Positions 19,788 to 25,286 of a stretch of DNA of 35,738 nucleotides are shown in pieces. Every line of letters starts with the position of its first letter. The stretch's first letter is position 1. The DNA comes from a virus. The notes beneath the pieces were generated by a model. It had not been told where the DNA came from. It saw nothing but the letters and a program-made list of their open reading frames with translations, and made no database searches. The position numbers and the translations under genes are program-made. The stretch spans positions 1-35,738 of IMG/VR virus record IMGVR_UViG_3300050017_000010; one strand, 5' to 3'.

Positions 19788-20237
19788 CTAGAAGTTAATA
19801 CCTATGCTAATACCTAATGTTCCGTTTGTCAAGCCAAACCCGCCCACAGTAATAGGCCCTAGCACCTGTTTTGACACACTCACGCCGTAGTATGGCGTCC
19901 AGTTGTCGATGGCCGCGAGAGCCGATACATTAACTGTATTAGTCTTAGGCGGGATGACATCAGTAGTCACTTTGCTAGTGTCTGTAATTACGTCGGTATT
20001 ATGCGCAACAGTATCAACAGTAGTTGTGGTGTCTGTCTCTTTAGCTCCATCGGGCTGTTGGATGACTTTTGTCGTAGTTACGCTGTGGGTATCCTTGTTA
20101 CTGGCTTCTTTTGTAACATCTTGCACTGAGGATACTGTTTTTACTTCGGGTTTTTGAGTGGCGGAGTAACGTCCAGCGACGAAAGCACCTAGTAGCATTG
20201 CTATTGCAAGCCCGAATCTAAGTTTCTCTTGTATCAT
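19788..20237 (-). CDS. N-terminally anchored periplasmic protein, possible spanin-like
   Basis: A 149-aa protein with a single N-terminal membrane segment (about 8-22, LAIAMLLGAFVAGRY) and a Thr/Val/Asp-rich exported stretch (KETDTTTTVDTVAHNTDVIT). It ends in a short glycine-rich beta region (ITVGGFGLTNGTLGISIG). Position next to the holin candidate suggests an envelope role such as an inner-membrane spanin; spanins are usually helical, and this one is Thr-rich, so the match is weak. ATG overlaps the upstream stop (ATGA). Confidence 0.65.
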   Translation of the reverse strand: MIQEKLRFGLAIAMLLGAFVAGRYSATQKPEVKTVSSVQDVTKEASNKDTHSVTTTKVIQQPDGAKETDTTTTVDTVAHNTDVITDTSKVTTDVIPPKTNTVNVSALAAIDNWTPYYGVSVSKQVLGPITVGGFGLTNGTLGISIGINF

Positions 20238-20587
20238 AATGGCCCCATATCTTCCCAGTCTTCACGACGAAATTTAGTGCTATCTTCGAACATTACTTTA
20301 TCTGGATGATCAGCAAGAATTTCATTTTCACCCACTTCTGCGATAAAGACTATAGTCCCTATTCCTAGGAATGACGTGCAAACTGCTTCGGCTGATCGAC
20401 CAGTCTTTTTGTGAATCCACAAACGAACATTAGGATTAGATCTTGGCATTTTCATCTCCCAGTAGTACTCGCACGTCTGAGGATCGGGTGAGAAATAAGA
20501 TTGATATTTGCTAGCTTTAGCTCTATATCGATAGCAGGCTTCTCTTTTATCGCAACCTACACCCATGCACATTGATATGTCTGGCAT
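20234..20587 (-). CDS. Cys-rich small protein, putative zinc-binding
   Basis: A 117-aa protein. The N-terminal 45 residues hold a cysteine cluster (CMGVGCDKREACYRY then TCEYYW) that looks like a zinc knuckle seen in several phage hypothetical proteins. The rest is a small domain with NVRLWIHKKTGRSAE and IGTIVFIAEVGE strands, ending acidic. No catalytic motif is visible. It is linked to the ClpP-like gene by a TAATG overlap and to the next gene by ATGA. Function unknown. Confidence 0.75.
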   Translation of the reverse strand: MPDISMCMGVGCDKREACYRYRAKASKYQSYFSPDPQTCEYYWEMKMPRSNPNVRLWIHKKTGRSAEAVCTSFLGIGTIVFIAEVGENEILADHPDKVMFEDSTKFRREDWEDMGPL

Positions 20588-21078
20588 TATATCACCTTAT
20601 CTATAAGGCCTAGAGTTAGGCACTGCCGAGCATTAAAGTAGGTTGTTTTTTTGTGCATATCACTCCACAGGGCGGCTGTGGTGTTAGTACAGTCCGCAAG
20701 CAAATCACACCATTGTTCTTCGAGCCTGCGCATATGACTGGCTTCCCGCTCAAGTTCAACGACATTACCTTTAATCTTACCTGCATCTTCGTGCACCATC
20801 ACCCAGGCCTCTTTCGCCATACTGCGCTCATGTCCATAGGCTAATATAATGACAGCAGCGCTAGCCACTTCGCCGAAGGCTGTTATACGTACTCGCAACC
20901 CACATGTGCGGATCTTAGAGGCGATAGCAAGGGCAGAAATGGCACTTCCGCCGAAGGAGTTGATCTCGATATCTATAAGCTTCGCTTTAGGGTATTCTTT
21001 TTGAAACTCGCGGAGTTGATCTGAGAACGCCTTATAGGCATCGTCATTAATCTCGCCTACGATTTGTATGTCACTCAT
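20587..21078 (-). CDS. Cytoplasmic ClpP-like serine protease
   Basis: A 163-aa ClpP/crotonase-fold protein. The substrate-binding loop is INSFGGSAISALAI (39-52), the nucleophile is S73 in EVASAAVIILAYG, and H96 is in WVMVHEDAG. The site of the ClpP catalytic Asp aligns roughly with T145 (KKTTYFNARQ before LGLID), so the third residue is not canonical. There is no signal peptide. It is near the start of the leftward operon, far from capsid genes, so a prohead protease role is not indicated. Start ATG 21078 has GGAGGGG upstream; the longer TTG frame overlaps that SD. Confidence 0.85.
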   Translation of the reverse strand: MSDIQIVGEINDDAYKAFSDQLREFQKEYPKAKLIDIEINSFGGSAISALAIASKIRTCGLRVRITAFGEVASAAVIILAYGHERSMAKEAWVMVHEDAGKIKGNVVELEREASHMRRLEEQWCDLLADCTNTTAALWSDMHKKTTYFNARQCLTLGLIDKVI

Positions 21079-21105
21079 GCAATACCCCTCCAAAAAAGAC
21101 GGCCA

Positions 21106-21300: not shown

Positions 21301-21317
21301 CCTATCACGGGGATAGG
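21301..21317. promoter_or_regulatory. Inverted repeat at the leftward operon leader
   Basis: CCTATC-acggg-GATAGG, a perfect 6-bp inverted repeat just before the SD of the first leftward gene. It could be an operator half-site pair or an mRNA hairpin next to the SD. Confidence 0.4.
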
Positions 21318-21333
21318 TGACGGGTCAAGTACT

Positions 21334-21392
21334 AAAAAAGAAGGCCCCTACACATCGGCAAGCTAGGAGGAGGAGGGCTTAGTGTAGGGGCC
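21334..21392 (-). terminator. Intrinsic terminator or attenuator in leader of leftward operon
   Basis: Arms 21343-21353 and 21382-21392 are a perfect 11-bp inverted repeat (ggcccctacac and gtgtaggggcc). On the minus strand the hairpin is followed by TTCTTTTTT. It lies between the leftward promoters and the first leftward gene, so it would act as an attenuator unless antiterminated. Its 28-nt loop reads CCCTCCTCCTCC on this strand and AGGAGGAGGAGG on the other. An inner AAGC/GCTT pair extends the stem. Confidence 0.65.
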
Positions 21393-21416
21393 GGAGGCAG
21401 GAGGAGAACTTTACAT

Positions 21417-21445
21417 AGTATTACACGTAAAATATCAAAATGCAA
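21417..21445 (-). promoter_or_regulatory. Leftward sigma70-like promoter, proximal
   Basis: The minus strand reads TTGCAT, 17 nt ending TGT, then AATACT. Spacer length and extended -10 match the promoter at 7939-7967. Transcription would start about 20 nt before the attenuator-like hairpin. Confidence 0.5.
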
Positions 21446-21448
21446 GAC

Positions 21449-21541
21449 TTATTTACTAAAAACGACACAAATACATAGAGCGACTATGTGAAAAGCGCAT
21501 AATACCAAAAACACTGAATTTGCCAAAATTTGCGTATGCAT
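21449..21541 (-). CDS. Possible 30-aa membrane peptide in the leader region
   Basis: ATG at 21541 opens a 30-codon frame ending TAA at 21449. The peptide is almost entirely one hydrophobic segment (about residues 9-28, VFLVLCAFHIVALCICVVFS) with a Lys at the end. AAGGG lies about 9 nt upstream. Downstream of the leftward consensus promoter it would be the first translated frame. It is short and in an AT-rich region, so chance is possible. Confidence 0.35.
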   Translation of the reverse strand: MHTQILANSVFLVLCAFHIVALCICVVFSK

Positions 21542-21622
21542 GGTCGTTATCCCTTATAGTTTGTATCTATATTTACCCACATATTGGGGGTATAAGTACA
21601 GTATAATACATACTTTAACCTT

Positions 21623-21642
21623 AAGTATACTATAATATGTCT
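21623..21642. repeat. 20-nt direct repeat, copy 1
   Basis: aagtatactataatatgtct, identical to 21657-21676 with a period of 34 nt. It contains the palindrome AGTATACT and a TATAAT hexamer. A degenerate third copy starts near 21594. Confidence 0.75.
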
Positions 21643-21670
21643 TGGTATAAGGTCATAAGTATACTATAAT
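21642..21670 (+). promoter_or_regulatory. Rightward sigma70-like promoter
   Basis: TTGGTA, 17 nt, TATAAT. The -10 lies in the second 20-nt repeat. It faces the leftward promoter at 21755-21783, so the two transcripts would overlap in their first tens of nucleotides. Confidence 0.5.
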
Positions 21671-21676
21671 ATGTCT
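21657..21676. repeat. 20-nt direct repeat, copy 2
   Basis: Exact second copy of the 21623-21642 repeat. Its TATAAT forms the -10 of the rightward promoter candidate, so the repeats may be operators or promoter units. Confidence 0.75.
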
Positions 21677-21754
21677 ATAGGCTTAAGGTCTTTGGCACAT
21701 TCCCTGCTTGATTTAAAAAACATGAAAAAAAGGCTAAACGTTAAGTACTCTTCT

Positions 21755-21783
21755 ATTATACCTAAGGGCTGGAAACGTGTCAA
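21755..21783 (-). promoter_or_regulatory. Leftward promoter with perfect sigma70 consensus
   Basis: The minus strand has TTGACA, 17 nt, TATAAT: exact consensus hexamers and ideal spacing. It would be recognised by unmodified host RNA polymerase and is the best candidate for the main early leftward promoter. Initiation is expected near 21748, giving a leader of about 470 nt before the first gene. Confidence 0.8.
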
Positions 21784-21876
21784 GCACTATTTACTTATAT
21801 TATAGTTATAGTAGGCATAAGAATAATCTATTGGTAATTAGGCTTAAGGCAGTGCAGTATGGCTACAGGAGGTCTT

Positions 21877-22133: not shown

Positions 22134-22238
22134 ATGGCTAAAGCGCGCAAAGATTTAATGGCCAGTTCGATTGTAGTGGTTTTGATATATGCACTTGCTT
22201 TTTTGTTATATCTAGGTTATTATAGTCTTAAGCAATAG
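22134..22238 (+). CDS. 34-aa single-pass membrane microprotein
   Basis: A short gene between the first rightward gene and the lipoprotein gene. The peptide has a basic start (MAKARKD) and a transmembrane segment at about residues 11-30 (SSIVVVLIYALAFLLYLGYY). AGGG lies about 10 nt upstream of ATG 22134, and the TAG stop sits in the AATAGGAGG SD of the lipoprotein gene, a spacing typical of real neighbours. Opens the envelope cassette; function unknown. Confidence 0.6.
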   Translation: MAKARKDLMASSIVVVLIYALAFLLYLGYYSLKQ

Positions 22239-22246
22239 GAGGTTTT

Positions 22247-22642
22247 ATGAAATACGTAACGATAGTACTGATGTTTATGCTGGCGGCCTGCGGACCTGAC
22301 CAAAACCCCGCCGCTCGACCGTTTTTGACTTGCACCACGAGTGATACGGCCCAAGGCGCACTTATTCAATGCCCGGATGGATCGTCATCATTAGTTACTA
22401 GCGGGGCTAACGGTACGCCAGGGACAGTCATAACTGCCGTCCAGTTCTGCCCGAATGTGACGCCTGTCTACCCGTCGACCTTCCCAGAAAGCGGGATATG
22501 CCTAGACGGTACCATGTATGGCGTCTATAGCGCTAATGGCGGATTCCTGGCCGCACTTCCGCCTGGGCAGTACAGCAGTGATGGAATTAATGCAAGTTGT
22601 ACCTTTACTATTCAACCAAACTGTGTTATCGTAAATCAATAA
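22247..22642 (+). CDS. Outer-envelope lipoprotein
   Basis: A 131-aa precursor with a lipoprotein signal peptide: MKYVTIVLMFMLAACG, lipobox LAAC with Cys15 as the acylated residue. The mature part has four to six further cysteines, a short collagen-like stretch (GANGTPGT) and a C-terminal domain (AVQFCPNVTPVYPSTFPES and NGGFLAALPPGQYSSDG) that I associate with proteins near phage collagen-like genes. SD AGGAGG at ideal distance. A lipoprotein made during infection could alter the host surface, for example to block superinfection; that is inference. Confidence 0.85.
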   Translation: MKYVTIVLMFMLAACGPDQNPAARPFLTCTTSDTAQGALIQCPDGSSSLVTSGANGTPGTVITAVQFCPNVTPVYPSTFPESGICLDGTMYGVYSANGGFLAALPPGQYSSDGINASCTFTIQPNCVIVNQ

Positions 22643-22652
22643 AGGAGATTTC

Positions 22653-23552
22653 ATGAAACTAAAGAATAACTACATTTTTATCGGGGCAGCAATCGTATTG
22701 CTGTTTGCTCTGTTGACGCCGGCCTTTGCTGCTACGAGTGCCTCAGATAGTACCAAAGATCTCATTGTACTGAACGAGGCTAACACAGTCAGTCTACGCG
22801 GTGTCGTAGACGGCTCTTCTGTGGCCGAAGTGATCAAGGGCATTGAAAAACTCAATGATCAAAAAGTGCCACTTATTGGCAAGATCCGTCATAAACTATT
22901 TACACCAAAACCCATCTACCTTGTACTATATACGCCCGGAGGCGACGTTGGTGCTGGCCTTGAACTTGTAGAGGCAATTAAAGGAAGTGTGCGCCCCGTT
23001 CATACAATTACGATGTTTGCTGCAAGTATGGGATTCCAGATCGCCCAGCAGCTGGGCACCCGCTATATCTTAGAGACGGGCACTCTGATGAGTCACCATG
23101 CCAAAGGCAGTGTTGGAGGCGAGATCGGCGGGCGCGGAACTAGCCAGATTCAATCTCGTTTAGGTTATTTCGAACGATTATTGACTGAATTAGACCTACA
23201 AACAGTGGCGCGCACAGGAGGTAAACAAACACTGGCTAGTTACCAAGAGGCGTACGACCATGAGCTGTGGGTATCGGGCAAAGAATCTGTCGCTCAAGGG
23301 TACGCCGATGAGGTAGTGACTGTACGCTGCGATGCAAGTTTGGCCGGGTATGAAATGCATACGGTCGATATCCCCACGCCATTTGGTAATATCGCTGTTG
23401 ATTATGACTCTGCCAAATGTCCTCTAAATTCTGCGCCTAAGAATGCTAGGCCGCATAAACAGATCGTTAATGATAAATTGGATGCAGCTTTAACCGAATT
23501 CAAAGACACCTATGATAACATCCAAAACCACATTATTCCGATGACGTACTAA
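22653..23552 (+). CDS. Exported ClpP-like serine protease
   Basis: A 299-aa protein with a classical Sec signal peptide (residues 1-26, MKLKNNYIFIGAAIVLLFAL then LTPAFA/A). The mature domain has the ClpP fold: LYTPGGDVGAGLELVEAI (92-109), nucleophile S125 in MFAASMGFQIAQQLG, and H148/H149 in TLMSHHAKG. The third residue aligns with E204 (HELWVSG before GYADEV), in place of the usual Asp, with D202 nearby. A 70-residue C-terminal extension follows. Ordinary ClpP is cytoplasmic, so a periplasmic one is unusual. SD AAGGAG. Adjacent to lipoprotein and cytochrome genes. Confidence 0.85.
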   Translation: MKLKNNYIFIGAAIVLLFALLTPAFAATSASDSTKDLIVLNEANTVSLRGVVDGSSVAEVIKGIEKLNDQKVPLIGKIRHKLFTPKPIYLVLYTPGGDVGAGLELVEAIKGSVRPVHTITMFAASMGFQIAQQLGTRYILETGTLMSHHAKGSVGGEIGGRGTSQIQSRLGYFERLLTELDLQTVARTGGKQTLASYQEAYDHELWVSGKESVAQGYADEVVTVRCDASLAGYEMHTVDIPTPFGNIAVDYDSAKCPLNSAPKNARPHKQIVNDKLDAALTEFKDTYDNIQNHIIPMTY

Positions 23553-23553
23553 T

Positions 23554-23685
23554 ATGATACACGAAGCTATCCCCTACATCATCGTTTACGGAGTGCTGGC
23601 GGCAATGCCGGTCTATAAATTGTGGGCGGCTTATCTTCGTAGGCCGCCCACTATCGAACTTACTGATTTAAGACAGTTACGATGA
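23554..23685 (+). CDS. 43-aa membrane-associated microprotein
   Basis: A short gene filling the gap between the exported protease and the cytochrome. The peptide has a hydrophobic segment (about 6-22, IPYIIVYGVLAAMPVYK) and a charged tail (YLRRPPTIELTDLRQLR). The ATG is 1 nt after the protease stop, and its TGA overlaps the cytochrome ATG (ATGA), giving translational coupling. No clear SD. It contains a GC-rich 9-bp inverted repeat (23622-23651) in its coding sequence. Confidence 0.6.
   Translation: MIHEAIPYIIVYGVLAAMPVYKLWAAYLRRPPTIELTDLRQLR
23622..23651 (+). repeat. GC-rich hairpin inside microprotein gene
   Basis: gtgggcggc at 23622-23630 and gccgcccac at 23643-23651 form a perfect 9-bp stem, extendable by three weaker pairs to a UCUUCG loop. 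No U-run follows, so it is not a terminator in this direction. It may stabilise or pause the mRNA just before the cytochrome gene. Confidence 0.55.
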
Positions 23686-23960
23686 TACTGGGATTATTGC
23701 TGGCCACCGCTATCGACGTACAAAACGGTAGAGATGTGTATATTCGCAATTGCACTTCTTGCCACAATACAAATCCGAGAGTTGATGGAAGCATAGCCCC
23801 CTCCGTGTGGGGCAGTAGCCGCGAACTGATAGAAGCCAGGGTGATTAAGGCCGAGTACCCTAAAGACTATAAGCCTAAACGCAATACGCATATAATGCAG
23901 CCGCTGCCTTTTCTAGGGCGCCACGTCTCAGAAATATACGCATACCTCAATAGCAATTGA
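23682..23960 (+). CDS. Monoheme class I c-type cytochrome
   Basis: A 92-aa protein with a covalent heme site NCTSCH (C24, C27, H28) and a likely axial Met72 in HIMQPLPFLG. The surrounding layout is class I: GRDVYIRNCTSCHN (N-terminal helix), DGSIAPSVWGSSRELIEARV, and a C-terminal helix HVSEIYAYLN. The first 10 residues (MILGLLLATA) are hydrophobic and could act as a short signal or anchor, though there is no basic n-region. Heme attachment would need host cytochrome c maturation in the periplasm. ATG overlaps the previous stop. It would carry electrons in host respiration or redox chemistry. Confidence 0.85.
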   Translation: MILGLLLATAIDVQNGRDVYIRNCTSCHNTNPRVDGSIAPSVWGSSRELIEARVIKAEYPKDYKPKRNTHIMQPLPFLGRHVSEIYAYLNSN

Positions 23961-24005: not shown

Positions 24006-24287
24006 ATGCGAAGAACTATCCGTTTCGACACAGTAGATTCGACAGAAACCTTTGAGTTTGATTTGGGCGATATGGGCATTTTTGAATGCACACTGTGCAT
24101 TGCGCGTTACCGCCCGGAGCAAGGGGGTATGTTTGATGAAAAATGGGTCGCTGTGCCTGAGGCGCTAGAAGTATTGGCCGTTGATGGGCAAGACCTTCCA
24201 AGCATAACTCAAGAGTTTCAAAGTATTATCAATCGAATGTTAATCGACCAAACATTAGTAGTGGAAGTGGTGACCTATTTTGACTGA
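24006..24287 (+). CDS. Hypothetical protein
   Basis: A 93-aa protein I do not recognise. It contains a Cys pair (FECTLCIARYR) and acidic/hydrophobic alternation (DSTETFEFDLGDMGIF), suggesting a small beta-rich fold. The longest frame starts at 23964, but AGGAGGAAAT before ATG 24006 gives the true start. Its end overlaps the first alanine-rich paralog by 8 nt. Confidence 0.7.
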   Translation: MRRTIRFDTVDSTETFEFDLGDMGIFECTLCIARYRPEQGGMFDEKWVAVPEALEVLAVDGQDLPSITQEFQSIINRMLIDQTLVVEVVTYFD

Positions 24288-24732
24288 ATTTAATTCCTTG
24301 TCAATAGAGCAAATACTTAAGTCCTATGCCTTTCCATATAGGTTCTATGTCAGATACGCTGTGTACTGTGCTAAGTACGCTATGACTAATGTGAAGGCAG
24401 AGGATCAAGACCCTAGATCCCTAAAGGTTCTAGCCCTAGCAGAGGCCTTCGGCAATGGCCAAGCAATAGACGCTAAAGAACTAGAGGCTGCCGCCCGTGC
24501 CGCCCATACCGCCACCTATACCGCCTATGCCGCCGCCACCTATGCCGCCGCCTATGCCGCCCATACCGCCGCCTATACCGCCTATGCCGCCACCTATACC
24601 GCCTATGCCACCGCCTATGCCGCCTATGCCGCCGCCACCAGCGCCGCCTCCACAGAAGAACTAAAAGACTATCTTATAGATACTATTAGTAAAGAGTTTA
24701 ATGACTTAGAACTAATGTTGATGCGGAGTTAG
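24280..24732 (+). CDS. Alanine-rich repeat protein, paralog 1
   Basis: A 150-aa protein with a conserved N-terminus (SLSIEQILKSYAFPYRFYVR then YAVYCAKYAM), a segment EDQDPRSLKVLALAEAFGNG, then a low-complexity alanine-rich region (about 68-123) with Tyr, His or Thr every third or fourth residue, and the tail STEELKDYLIDTISKEFNDL. It resembles Ala-rich helical proteins related to the putative immunity (Imm5-like) group; function unknown. TTG start at 24280 is inferred from overlap and alignment with paralog 2, without a good SD. The second copy at 24777 is nearly identical outside the repeats. Confidence 0.7.
   Translation: MTEFNSLSIEQILKSYAFPYRFYVRYAVYCAKYAMTNVKAEDQDPRSLKVLALAEAFGNGQAIDAKELEAAARAAHTATYTAYAAATYAAAYAAHTAAYTAYAATYTAYATAYAAYAAATSAASTEELKDYLIDTISKEFNDLELMLMRS
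24487..24649 (+). repeat. GCC-rich codon repeat, paralog 1
   Basis: Tract of GCC codons alternating with TAT, CAT and ACC codons. It encodes the Ala/Tyr/Thr low-complexity region and is prone to slippage. Confidence 0.75.
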
Positions 24733-24735
24733 GGA

Positions 24736-24780
24736 ATGAATATACGCTTTACGCCTTTAGGCGGGAATATCTGCATATGA
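24736..24780 (+). pseudogene. 14-codon frame between the paralogs, probable relic
   Basis: ATG near 24736 after GGAG opens 14 codons (MNIRFTPLGGNICI) whose TGA overlaps the ATG of paralog 2. Its start region matches the sequence after paralog 2 (CTTTACGCCTT at both sites), where a full 72-aa gene follows, so it looks like the cut remnant of that gene left by the tandem duplication. It may still couple translation. Confidence 0.4.
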
Positions 24781-25286
24781 AGAATGAACTTAGCCATCTA
24801 TCAATAGAGCAAATACTTAAGTCCTATGCCTTTCCACATAGGTTCTATGTCAGATACGCTGTGCATTGCGCTAAGTACGCTATGGCTAATGTGAAGGCAG
24901 AGGATCAAGACCCTAGACCCCTAAAGGCTCTAGCCCTAGCAGAGGCCTTCGGCAATGGCCAAGCAATAGACGCTAAAGAACTAGAGGCTGCTGTTGATGC
25001 CGCCTATGCCGCCACCAGCGCCGCCTATGCCGCCGATACCGCCACCAGCGCCGCCACCCATGCCGCCCATGCCGCCCATGCCGCCACCTATGCCGCCCAT
25101 GCCGCCTATGCCACCTATACCGCCTATGCCGCCGCCCATGCCGCCACCTATGCCACCGCCCTTGCCGCCACCTATACCGCCTATGCCACCGCCCATGCCG
25201 CCTCCACAGAAGAACTAAAAGCCTATCTTATAGATACTATTAGTAAAGAGTTTAATGACTTAGAACTAATGTTGATGCGGAGTTAA
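24777..25286 (+). CDS. Alanine-rich repeat protein, paralog 2
   Basis: A 169-aa tandem copy of the gene at 24280-24732. Residues 8-73 differ from paralog 1 at only a few positions (for example FPHRFYVRYAVHCAKYAMAN), and the last 27 residues differ at one. The alanine-rich centre is longer and has a different Tyr/His/Thr/Ser order, so the repeat tract expanded or contracted after duplication. ATG at 24777 has a weak SD and overlaps the stop of a 14-codon frame. The function is unknown; soluble helical repeat proteins of this kind occur in phage and bacterial accessory regions. Confidence 0.75.
   Translation: MKNELSHLSIEQILKSYAFPHRFYVRYAVHCAKYAMANVKAEDQDPRPLKALALAEAFGNGQAIDAKELEAAVDAAYAATSAAYAADTATSAATHAAHAAHAATYAAHAAYATYTAYAAAHAATYATALAATYTAYATAHAASTEELKAYLIDTISKEFNDLELMLMRS
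24997..25204 (+). repeat. GCC-rich codon repeat, paralog 2
   Basis: Second and longer GCC-codon tract with interspersed TAT, CAT, ACC and AGC codons. The order differs from the first tract, while flanking DNA is nearly identical. Confidence 0.75.

Follow-up and report, generated by a model that had tools for sequence, protein, structure and literature searches.

A class I c-type cytochrome encoded by a phage, with relatives in unrelated phages and a possible host membrane partner

Our study examined a complete IMG/VR virus record (IMGVR_UViG_3300050017_000010; 35,738 bases, all of which is referred to here as the window) and established, from fold and family, that its open reading frame (ORF) at 23682-23960 on the plus strand encodes a class I cytochrome c. 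The record is a genuine phage, with genes for a P22-type portal, terminase, family A DNA polymerase (PolA), DnaB-like helicase, SbcC/SbcD-like proteins, UvsX-like recombinase and SLT transglycosylase, and with virion genes that include a tail-collar fibre and an internal virion protein. Cytochromes of the same subfamily are encoded on 12 other IMG/VR contigs, representing 11 distinct phages of several unrelated groups, and this part of the host redox machinery seems to have been recruited by phages on more than one occasion. The best explanation of its role, in which we place roughly even confidence, is a host-derived auxiliary cytochrome that would serve a host membrane oxidoreductase of the PF06181 family as its electron-carrier subunit.

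Evidence for a class I cytochrome c

The gene is an intact ORF, reading from ATG to TGA, and its product of 92 amino acids (aa) is MILGLLLATAIDVQNGRDVYIRNCTSCHNTNPRVDGSIAPSVWGSSRELIEARVIKAEYPKDYKPKRNTHIMQPLPFLGRHVSEIYAYLNSN. An in-frame stop lies 18 bases before the ATG with no alternative start codon in between, and position 23682 is therefore the true start. The G+C content of the gene is 47.7%, compared to 45.5% for the whole record. Within the protein, a hydrophobic N-terminus (residues 2-10) is followed by the heme-attachment motif CTSCH (residues 24-28, read from the sequence; codons at 23751-23765, plus strand), by Pro40, which follows the heme His, and by a GSSxELI helix (45-56). The C-terminal half consists of a YPxxYxPKRxT loop (59-69), the predicted axial heme ligand Met72 within IMQPLPFL (codon 23895-23897, plus strand) and a helix at 76-89 that carries the aromatics Y86/Y88. 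A sequence-only reading of this stretch had named CTSCH, the downstream Met in IMQPLPFL and class I helices as the grounds for calling the protein a cytochrome, and each was confirmed, the helices by structure prediction.

That reading had also proposed a profile search and a structure prediction as checks, and both agreed with it. The ORF matched Pfam PF00034 at 22.7 bits (E 2.5e-4), above the curated cut-off of 21.3, and a profile derived from 113 cellular relatives alone matched it at 113.5 bits (E 1.5e-34), with no other match among the window's 756 six-frame ORFs. By signature and profile it is thus a member of a small cytochrome subfamily that is linked to PF06181 in cells. The helix-then-CxxCH signature is present (G16, Y20, C24, C27 and H28), and C24, C27 and H28, which lie outside the motif used for searching, are invariant in 75 aligned sequences. 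That motif was a DNA pattern for YPxxYxPKRxTxxM, checked first on the window sequence. The heme Cys/Cys/His, Pro40 and Met72 are invariant in alignments A1 and A2, the invariance of Met72 in A2 being partly by construction, as this Met is part of the search motif, and independent for L194/L195.

An AlphaFold2 model made with a 75-row alignment reached a predicted local distance difference test (pLDDT) of 94.6 and a predicted template modelling score (pTM) of 0.84, with helices at 2-23, 47-56 and 76-89; it was used instead of a model from the single sequence, for which pLDDT was 38. The best-matching chains by VIA-align were cytochrome c domains (Z 7-8.3), led by QcrC of Corynebacterium glutamicum (Z 8.3), a nitrite reductase cytochrome domain (Z 8.1), Rhodothermus marinus cytochrome c (Z 8.0) and the cytochrome c domain of a caa3 oxidase (Z 7.7); chain 7qhm_C superposed with a root-mean-square deviation of 2.3 over 76 residues. 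Foldseek E-values were weak by themselves (best 0.096, probability 0.99), and the fold assignment therefore leans on sequence and structure jointly. The model is heme-free and bears on the fold, not directly on the geometry of the heme pocket. A library of viral structures held no cytochrome-like match to it. Covalent attachment of heme at CTSCH is predicted from the motif.

Recurrence in phages, the cellular family and origin of the gene

The motif scan of IMG/VR returned ten contigs, and in 10/10 the match fell inside a small CxxCH cytochrome ORF; further scans added two contigs, both of one additional phage. TerL was recognized by PHROG in 6/10 of the cytochrome-bearing contigs. G016 encodes TerL, DNA polymerase and baseplate proteins, G013 tail fibres and a virion protein, and G017 a helicase-primase. 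Neighbouring genes are shared between G011 and G013 and between G012, G014 and G017; the other contigs seem to be related neither to these nor to the window. The phage cytochromes lie within closely packed series of small phage genes. Every copy has a hydrophobic N-terminus and several have a lipobox, and the GSS loop has diverged in some, reading TTPS in three phages. The ratio of non-synonymous to synonymous substitution rates (dN/dS) between phage copies was 0.07-0.23, with dS near or past saturation in most pairs; where measurable, these copies are under purifying selection. Two matches of the viral scan (L193, L196) and two of the cellular scan (L103, L130) were chance occurrences of the pattern and were discarded, and L128, which looked like a member cut by a contig edge, was excluded.

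The sequence-only reading had held that covalent-heme cytochromes are rare in phages, and this stands, as none of 50,697 deposited phages carries a cytochrome of this kind. A direct search with the window protein gave no match in IMG/VR or in the deposited phages, and a plasmid search with it gave only weak matches around CxxCH.

Ten contigs related to the window phage were retrieved through terminase and polymerase searches. The closest, G001 (37,177 bases), can be matched to a large part of the record, with core genes at 70-85% identity; it keeps a homolog of the window's lipoprotein gene at 22247-22642, and other small ORFs replace the genes for the ClpP-like protein, the 43-aa protein and the cytochrome. 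As the related contigs found lack it, the cytochrome gene counts as accessory in this phage group and is not essential to the group. A survey of phage contigs for conservation, also suggested by the sequence-only reading, thus gave a divided answer: the gene is not conserved among near relatives, yet it recurs in several unrelated groups. Like other auxiliary genes it has cellular homologs, resides in a verified phage genome and is not needed for virion or replication.

Scanning cellular sequences with the motif gave at least 116 stretches, of which 113 were clear members; the locus counts and cellular identities given here refer to the matches listed. By record title the members come from Bdellovibrionota, SAR324, Rokubacteria, Myxococcota and other 'deltaproteobacteria', Binatota and Fibrobacterota, and most carry a lipobox, being small and mostly lipoprotein cytochromes. 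The subfamily occurs in 47/241 surveyed genomes of the phylum Bdellovibrionota, mostly as a single copy. A protein of ~230 aa with PF06181 (Urate_ox_N, the PuuD membrane domain) lies near the cytochrome in 85/113 loci, and in 51/61 of those flanked on each side by 1.5 kb or more. It is placed downstream on the opposite strand in 56 loci and upstream on the same strand in 25, and the survival of the linkage through rearrangement argues for the cytochrome and the short PF06181 protein being a working pair. The pairing is usual, not universal. As an observation in its own right, this uncharacterized two-gene module of lipoprotein cytochrome c and short PF06181 protein is found across many phyla (L033-L148).

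The window copy and the cellular family share CxxCHxxDP..DGxxGPxxxGSSxELLEARV..YPxGYxPKRxTxxM, with identity of up to 54%. They differ in that the cellular genes are chromosomal, mostly encode lipoproteins and adjoin PF06181, whereas the phage gene of the window encodes a very short signal without a lipobox and has PF06181 nowhere beside it.

A tree of 125 sequences implied five changes between phage and cell by parsimony, and its well-supported branches force at least 3. Phages would thus have acquired the gene at least 3 times and most parsimoniously 5, an approximate count, as the alignment has just 85 columns and the tree has long branches and bootstraps that are not settled. The rows nearest to the window copy by path belong to Bacteriovoracaceae (Bdellovibrionota), and it has 54% identity to a Bacteriovoracaceae copy; the host is probably, not certainly, a member of Bdellovibrionota or a near relative. 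The second gene upstream of the cytochrome, for a ClpP-like protease predicted to be exported (22653-23552), matches only ClpP-like proteins in the phylum Bdellovibrionota and phage ClpP-like proteases, and is therefore uninformative on the host.

Proposed function and alternatives

The likeliest role of the cytochrome is as a subunit of a host PF06181 enzyme, because its cellular relatives nearly always adjoin a PF06181 protein. PuuD, the characterized protein of this family, operates together with a cytochrome c domain of its own and needs cytochrome maturation (PMC4562309). None of the phages checked has PF06181, and the partner is therefore assumed to be the host's. The sequence-only reading had suggested that the protein might modify electron flow or periplasmic redox chemistry; the gene linkage points to a narrower candidate, a PuuD-like (PF06181) protein of the host inner membrane.

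On this explanation, the cytochrome would be translated after the small membrane protein encoded upstream, exported to the periplasm by its very short signal and furnished with covalent heme at CTSCH by the host cytochrome c maturation system. It would act there as a one-electron carrier with His28/Met72 ligation, supplying or replacing the electron-accepting subunit of the PuuD-like multi-spanning inner-membrane enzyme. Electrons may then pass from the host PF06181 complex towards a terminal oxidase, which could maintain the proton motive force of the infected cell to the phage's benefit. More broadly, and more tentatively, with rather less than even confidence, we suggest that several unrelated phages, with hosts that are Bdellovibrio-like or otherwise deltaproteobacteria-like, have convergently taken up the cytochrome subunit of an uncharacterized PF06181-type membrane oxidoreductase and use it to keep or rewire periplasmic electron flow in infection. 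The cytochromes would then be the first recurrent phage family of covalent-heme c-type cytochromes and would point to an enzyme that limits phage growth in such hosts.

Several observations weigh against the proposal of a PF06181 partner served by a host-derived cytochrome. PF06181 is absent from the window and from the 10 phage contigs checked, and neither the cytochrome nor any PF00034 protein was found in the ten related contigs, several of which are fragments. The N-terminus of the window cytochrome (MILGLLLATA) is an unusually short export signal, lacking a basic n-region and a lipobox, and export by so short and uncharged a signal, judged from this sequence alone, is likely but not certain. 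The dN/dS values rest on the copies of other phages, with the window copy outside the measurement. The window copy falls in no well-supported clade of the tree, and a search of 369 genomes of the phylum Bdellovibrionota with the phage terminase gave only two distant matches, at 27% identity, and none that was close.

The protein could instead be a general periplasmic shuttle without a PF06181 partner, feeding electrons from the host bc1 complex or alternative complex III to cytochrome c oxidase, so that respiration continues after host gene expression stops. Its class I fold is nearest to the cytochrome domains of bc1/QcrC and of caa3 oxidase, the phage records checked keep the cytochrome and never the PF06181 gene, and the plastocyanin genes of cyanophages offer an analogy. 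However, host genomes with the subfamily almost always have just one copy, and its pairing with PF06181 is tight. This speaks for a dedicated partner, and we consider a general shuttle unlikely, with a modest chance of being right. The chance is slimmer still that the phage protein is a decoy or inhibitor, competing for the partner of the host cytochrome and blocking or diverting electrons, for example against an envelope-stress or anti-phage response or against superinfecting phages. Such a role would suit a gene set in an envelope-directed run of ORFs that includes a lipoprotein and a ClpP-like protease with predicted export, as well as the divergence of the GSS loop in some phage copies, whereas the retention of all redox-critical residues and the purifying selection on phage copies are those of a working carrier.

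A functionless passenger, recently captured and heading for loss, is very improbable. The absence of the gene from related phage contigs would fit it, but the ORF is intact with a start-stop overlap, every motif is retained despite identity of at most 54% to any cellular copy among the matches listed, and the gene has been captured repeatedly and independently, with low dN/dS in other phages. That the protein is not a cytochrome, or the contig bacterial and misread as viral, is scarcely credible, being refuted by profile, fold and phage context, with nothing found in its favour.

Gene neighbourhood and comparison with known systems

Five envelope-type ORFs stand in a row near the start of the rightward operon (22134-23960, plus strand) and end with the cytochrome gene, a position that makes an envelope-directed programme for this run plausible. 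The run opens with a 34-aa single-transmembrane (TM) ORF without a Pfam match (22134-22238), and continues with a predicted lipoprotein with an LAAC lipobox (22247-22642), conserved in related phages, and a ClpP-fold serine protease with an N-terminal signal peptide (22653-23552; PF00574, E 4.2e-12; head maturation protease by PHROGs). The fourth member is a 43-aa single-TM protein without a family match (23554-23685), whose stop overlaps the cytochrome start in the ATGA at 23682-23685; all are on the plus strand. Translational coupling of the two through this ATGA is a reasonable expectation. The sequence-only reading had seen the overlap and had taken the gene for a settled member of the operon. 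This was right only in part: the overlap is there, but the gene is missing from the related phage contigs found. The possibility that a frameshift fuses the 43-aa ORF to the cytochrome was rejected, as no slippery heptamer was seen and ATGA coupling suffices.

The rightward operon, which includes the cytochrome, and a leftward operon depart from a divergent intergenic region at 21301-21858. A putative leftward promoter there has a perfect sigma-70 consensus, TTGACA-17-TATAAT (minus strand, 21783-21755; a consensus match only). The ClpP-like protease with the signal peptide appears to keep its Ser and His positions and is predicted to act outside the cytoplasm, and a second ClpP-fold protease lies at 20587-21093 (minus strand), giving two such proteases in one 36-kb phage. 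Tandem paralogs at 24280-24732 and 24777-25286 (plus strand) have common ends and a degenerate Ala/Thr/Tyr-rich middle; the pattern recurs in their relatives in G001 (L012 and L013), and an Imm5-like Pfam score was weak. A 149-aa ORF at 19788-20237 (minus strand), conserved in related phages, has an N-terminal TM segment, a low-complexity middle and a conserved Gly-rich C-terminus (GPITVGGFGLTNGTLGISIGINF), and is possibly an envelope or spanin-like protein.

Electron-transport genes of phages are known mainly from cyanophages, whose plastocyanin (petE) is likewise a small electron carrier recruited by phages. It is a copper protein of photosynthesis, with an unrelated fold and no covalent heme, unlike the window cytochrome. 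That unrelated phages, both small and large, have repeatedly recruited a covalent-heme carrier suggests that a step of periplasmic electron transfer is worth controlling in infection, and the finding points to one host protein, the short PuuD-like PF06181 membrane protein that usually accompanies the cytochrome. Furthermore, the motif CxxCHxxDP..GP..GSSxEL..YPxGYxPKRxTxxM lets such genes be recognized instead of being labelled 'ccoP' or 'hypothetical'.

No description of this small monoheme family, or of this phage family, was found in the literature reached, most subscription journals and preprints lying outside the search. The gene adds new cargo to the auxiliary metabolic genes, a class already known, and its sequence is unremarkable within its cellular family. 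It resembles earlier reports of cytochrome or oxidase genes carried as auxiliary genes on viral contigs: soxD on two contigs, both without the second cytochrome motif and one also without the first, viral ccoP and cydAB in a review, and cbb3 oxidase reads in ocean viromes (PMC8190135, PMC12713726, PMC3474794). CcoP proper is an oxidase subunit, as against the small cytochrome of the window. A likeness exists also to PuuD (PMC4562309), a membrane cytochrome c urate oxidase that combines a PF06181 membrane domain with a class I cytochrome c, and the cellular two-gene module looks like a split PuuD. In PuuD the 8-TM PF06181 domain is fused to the cytochrome, whereas the split cellular PF06181 proteins are shorter, and the window ORF is a lone cytochrome domain in a record without PF06181.
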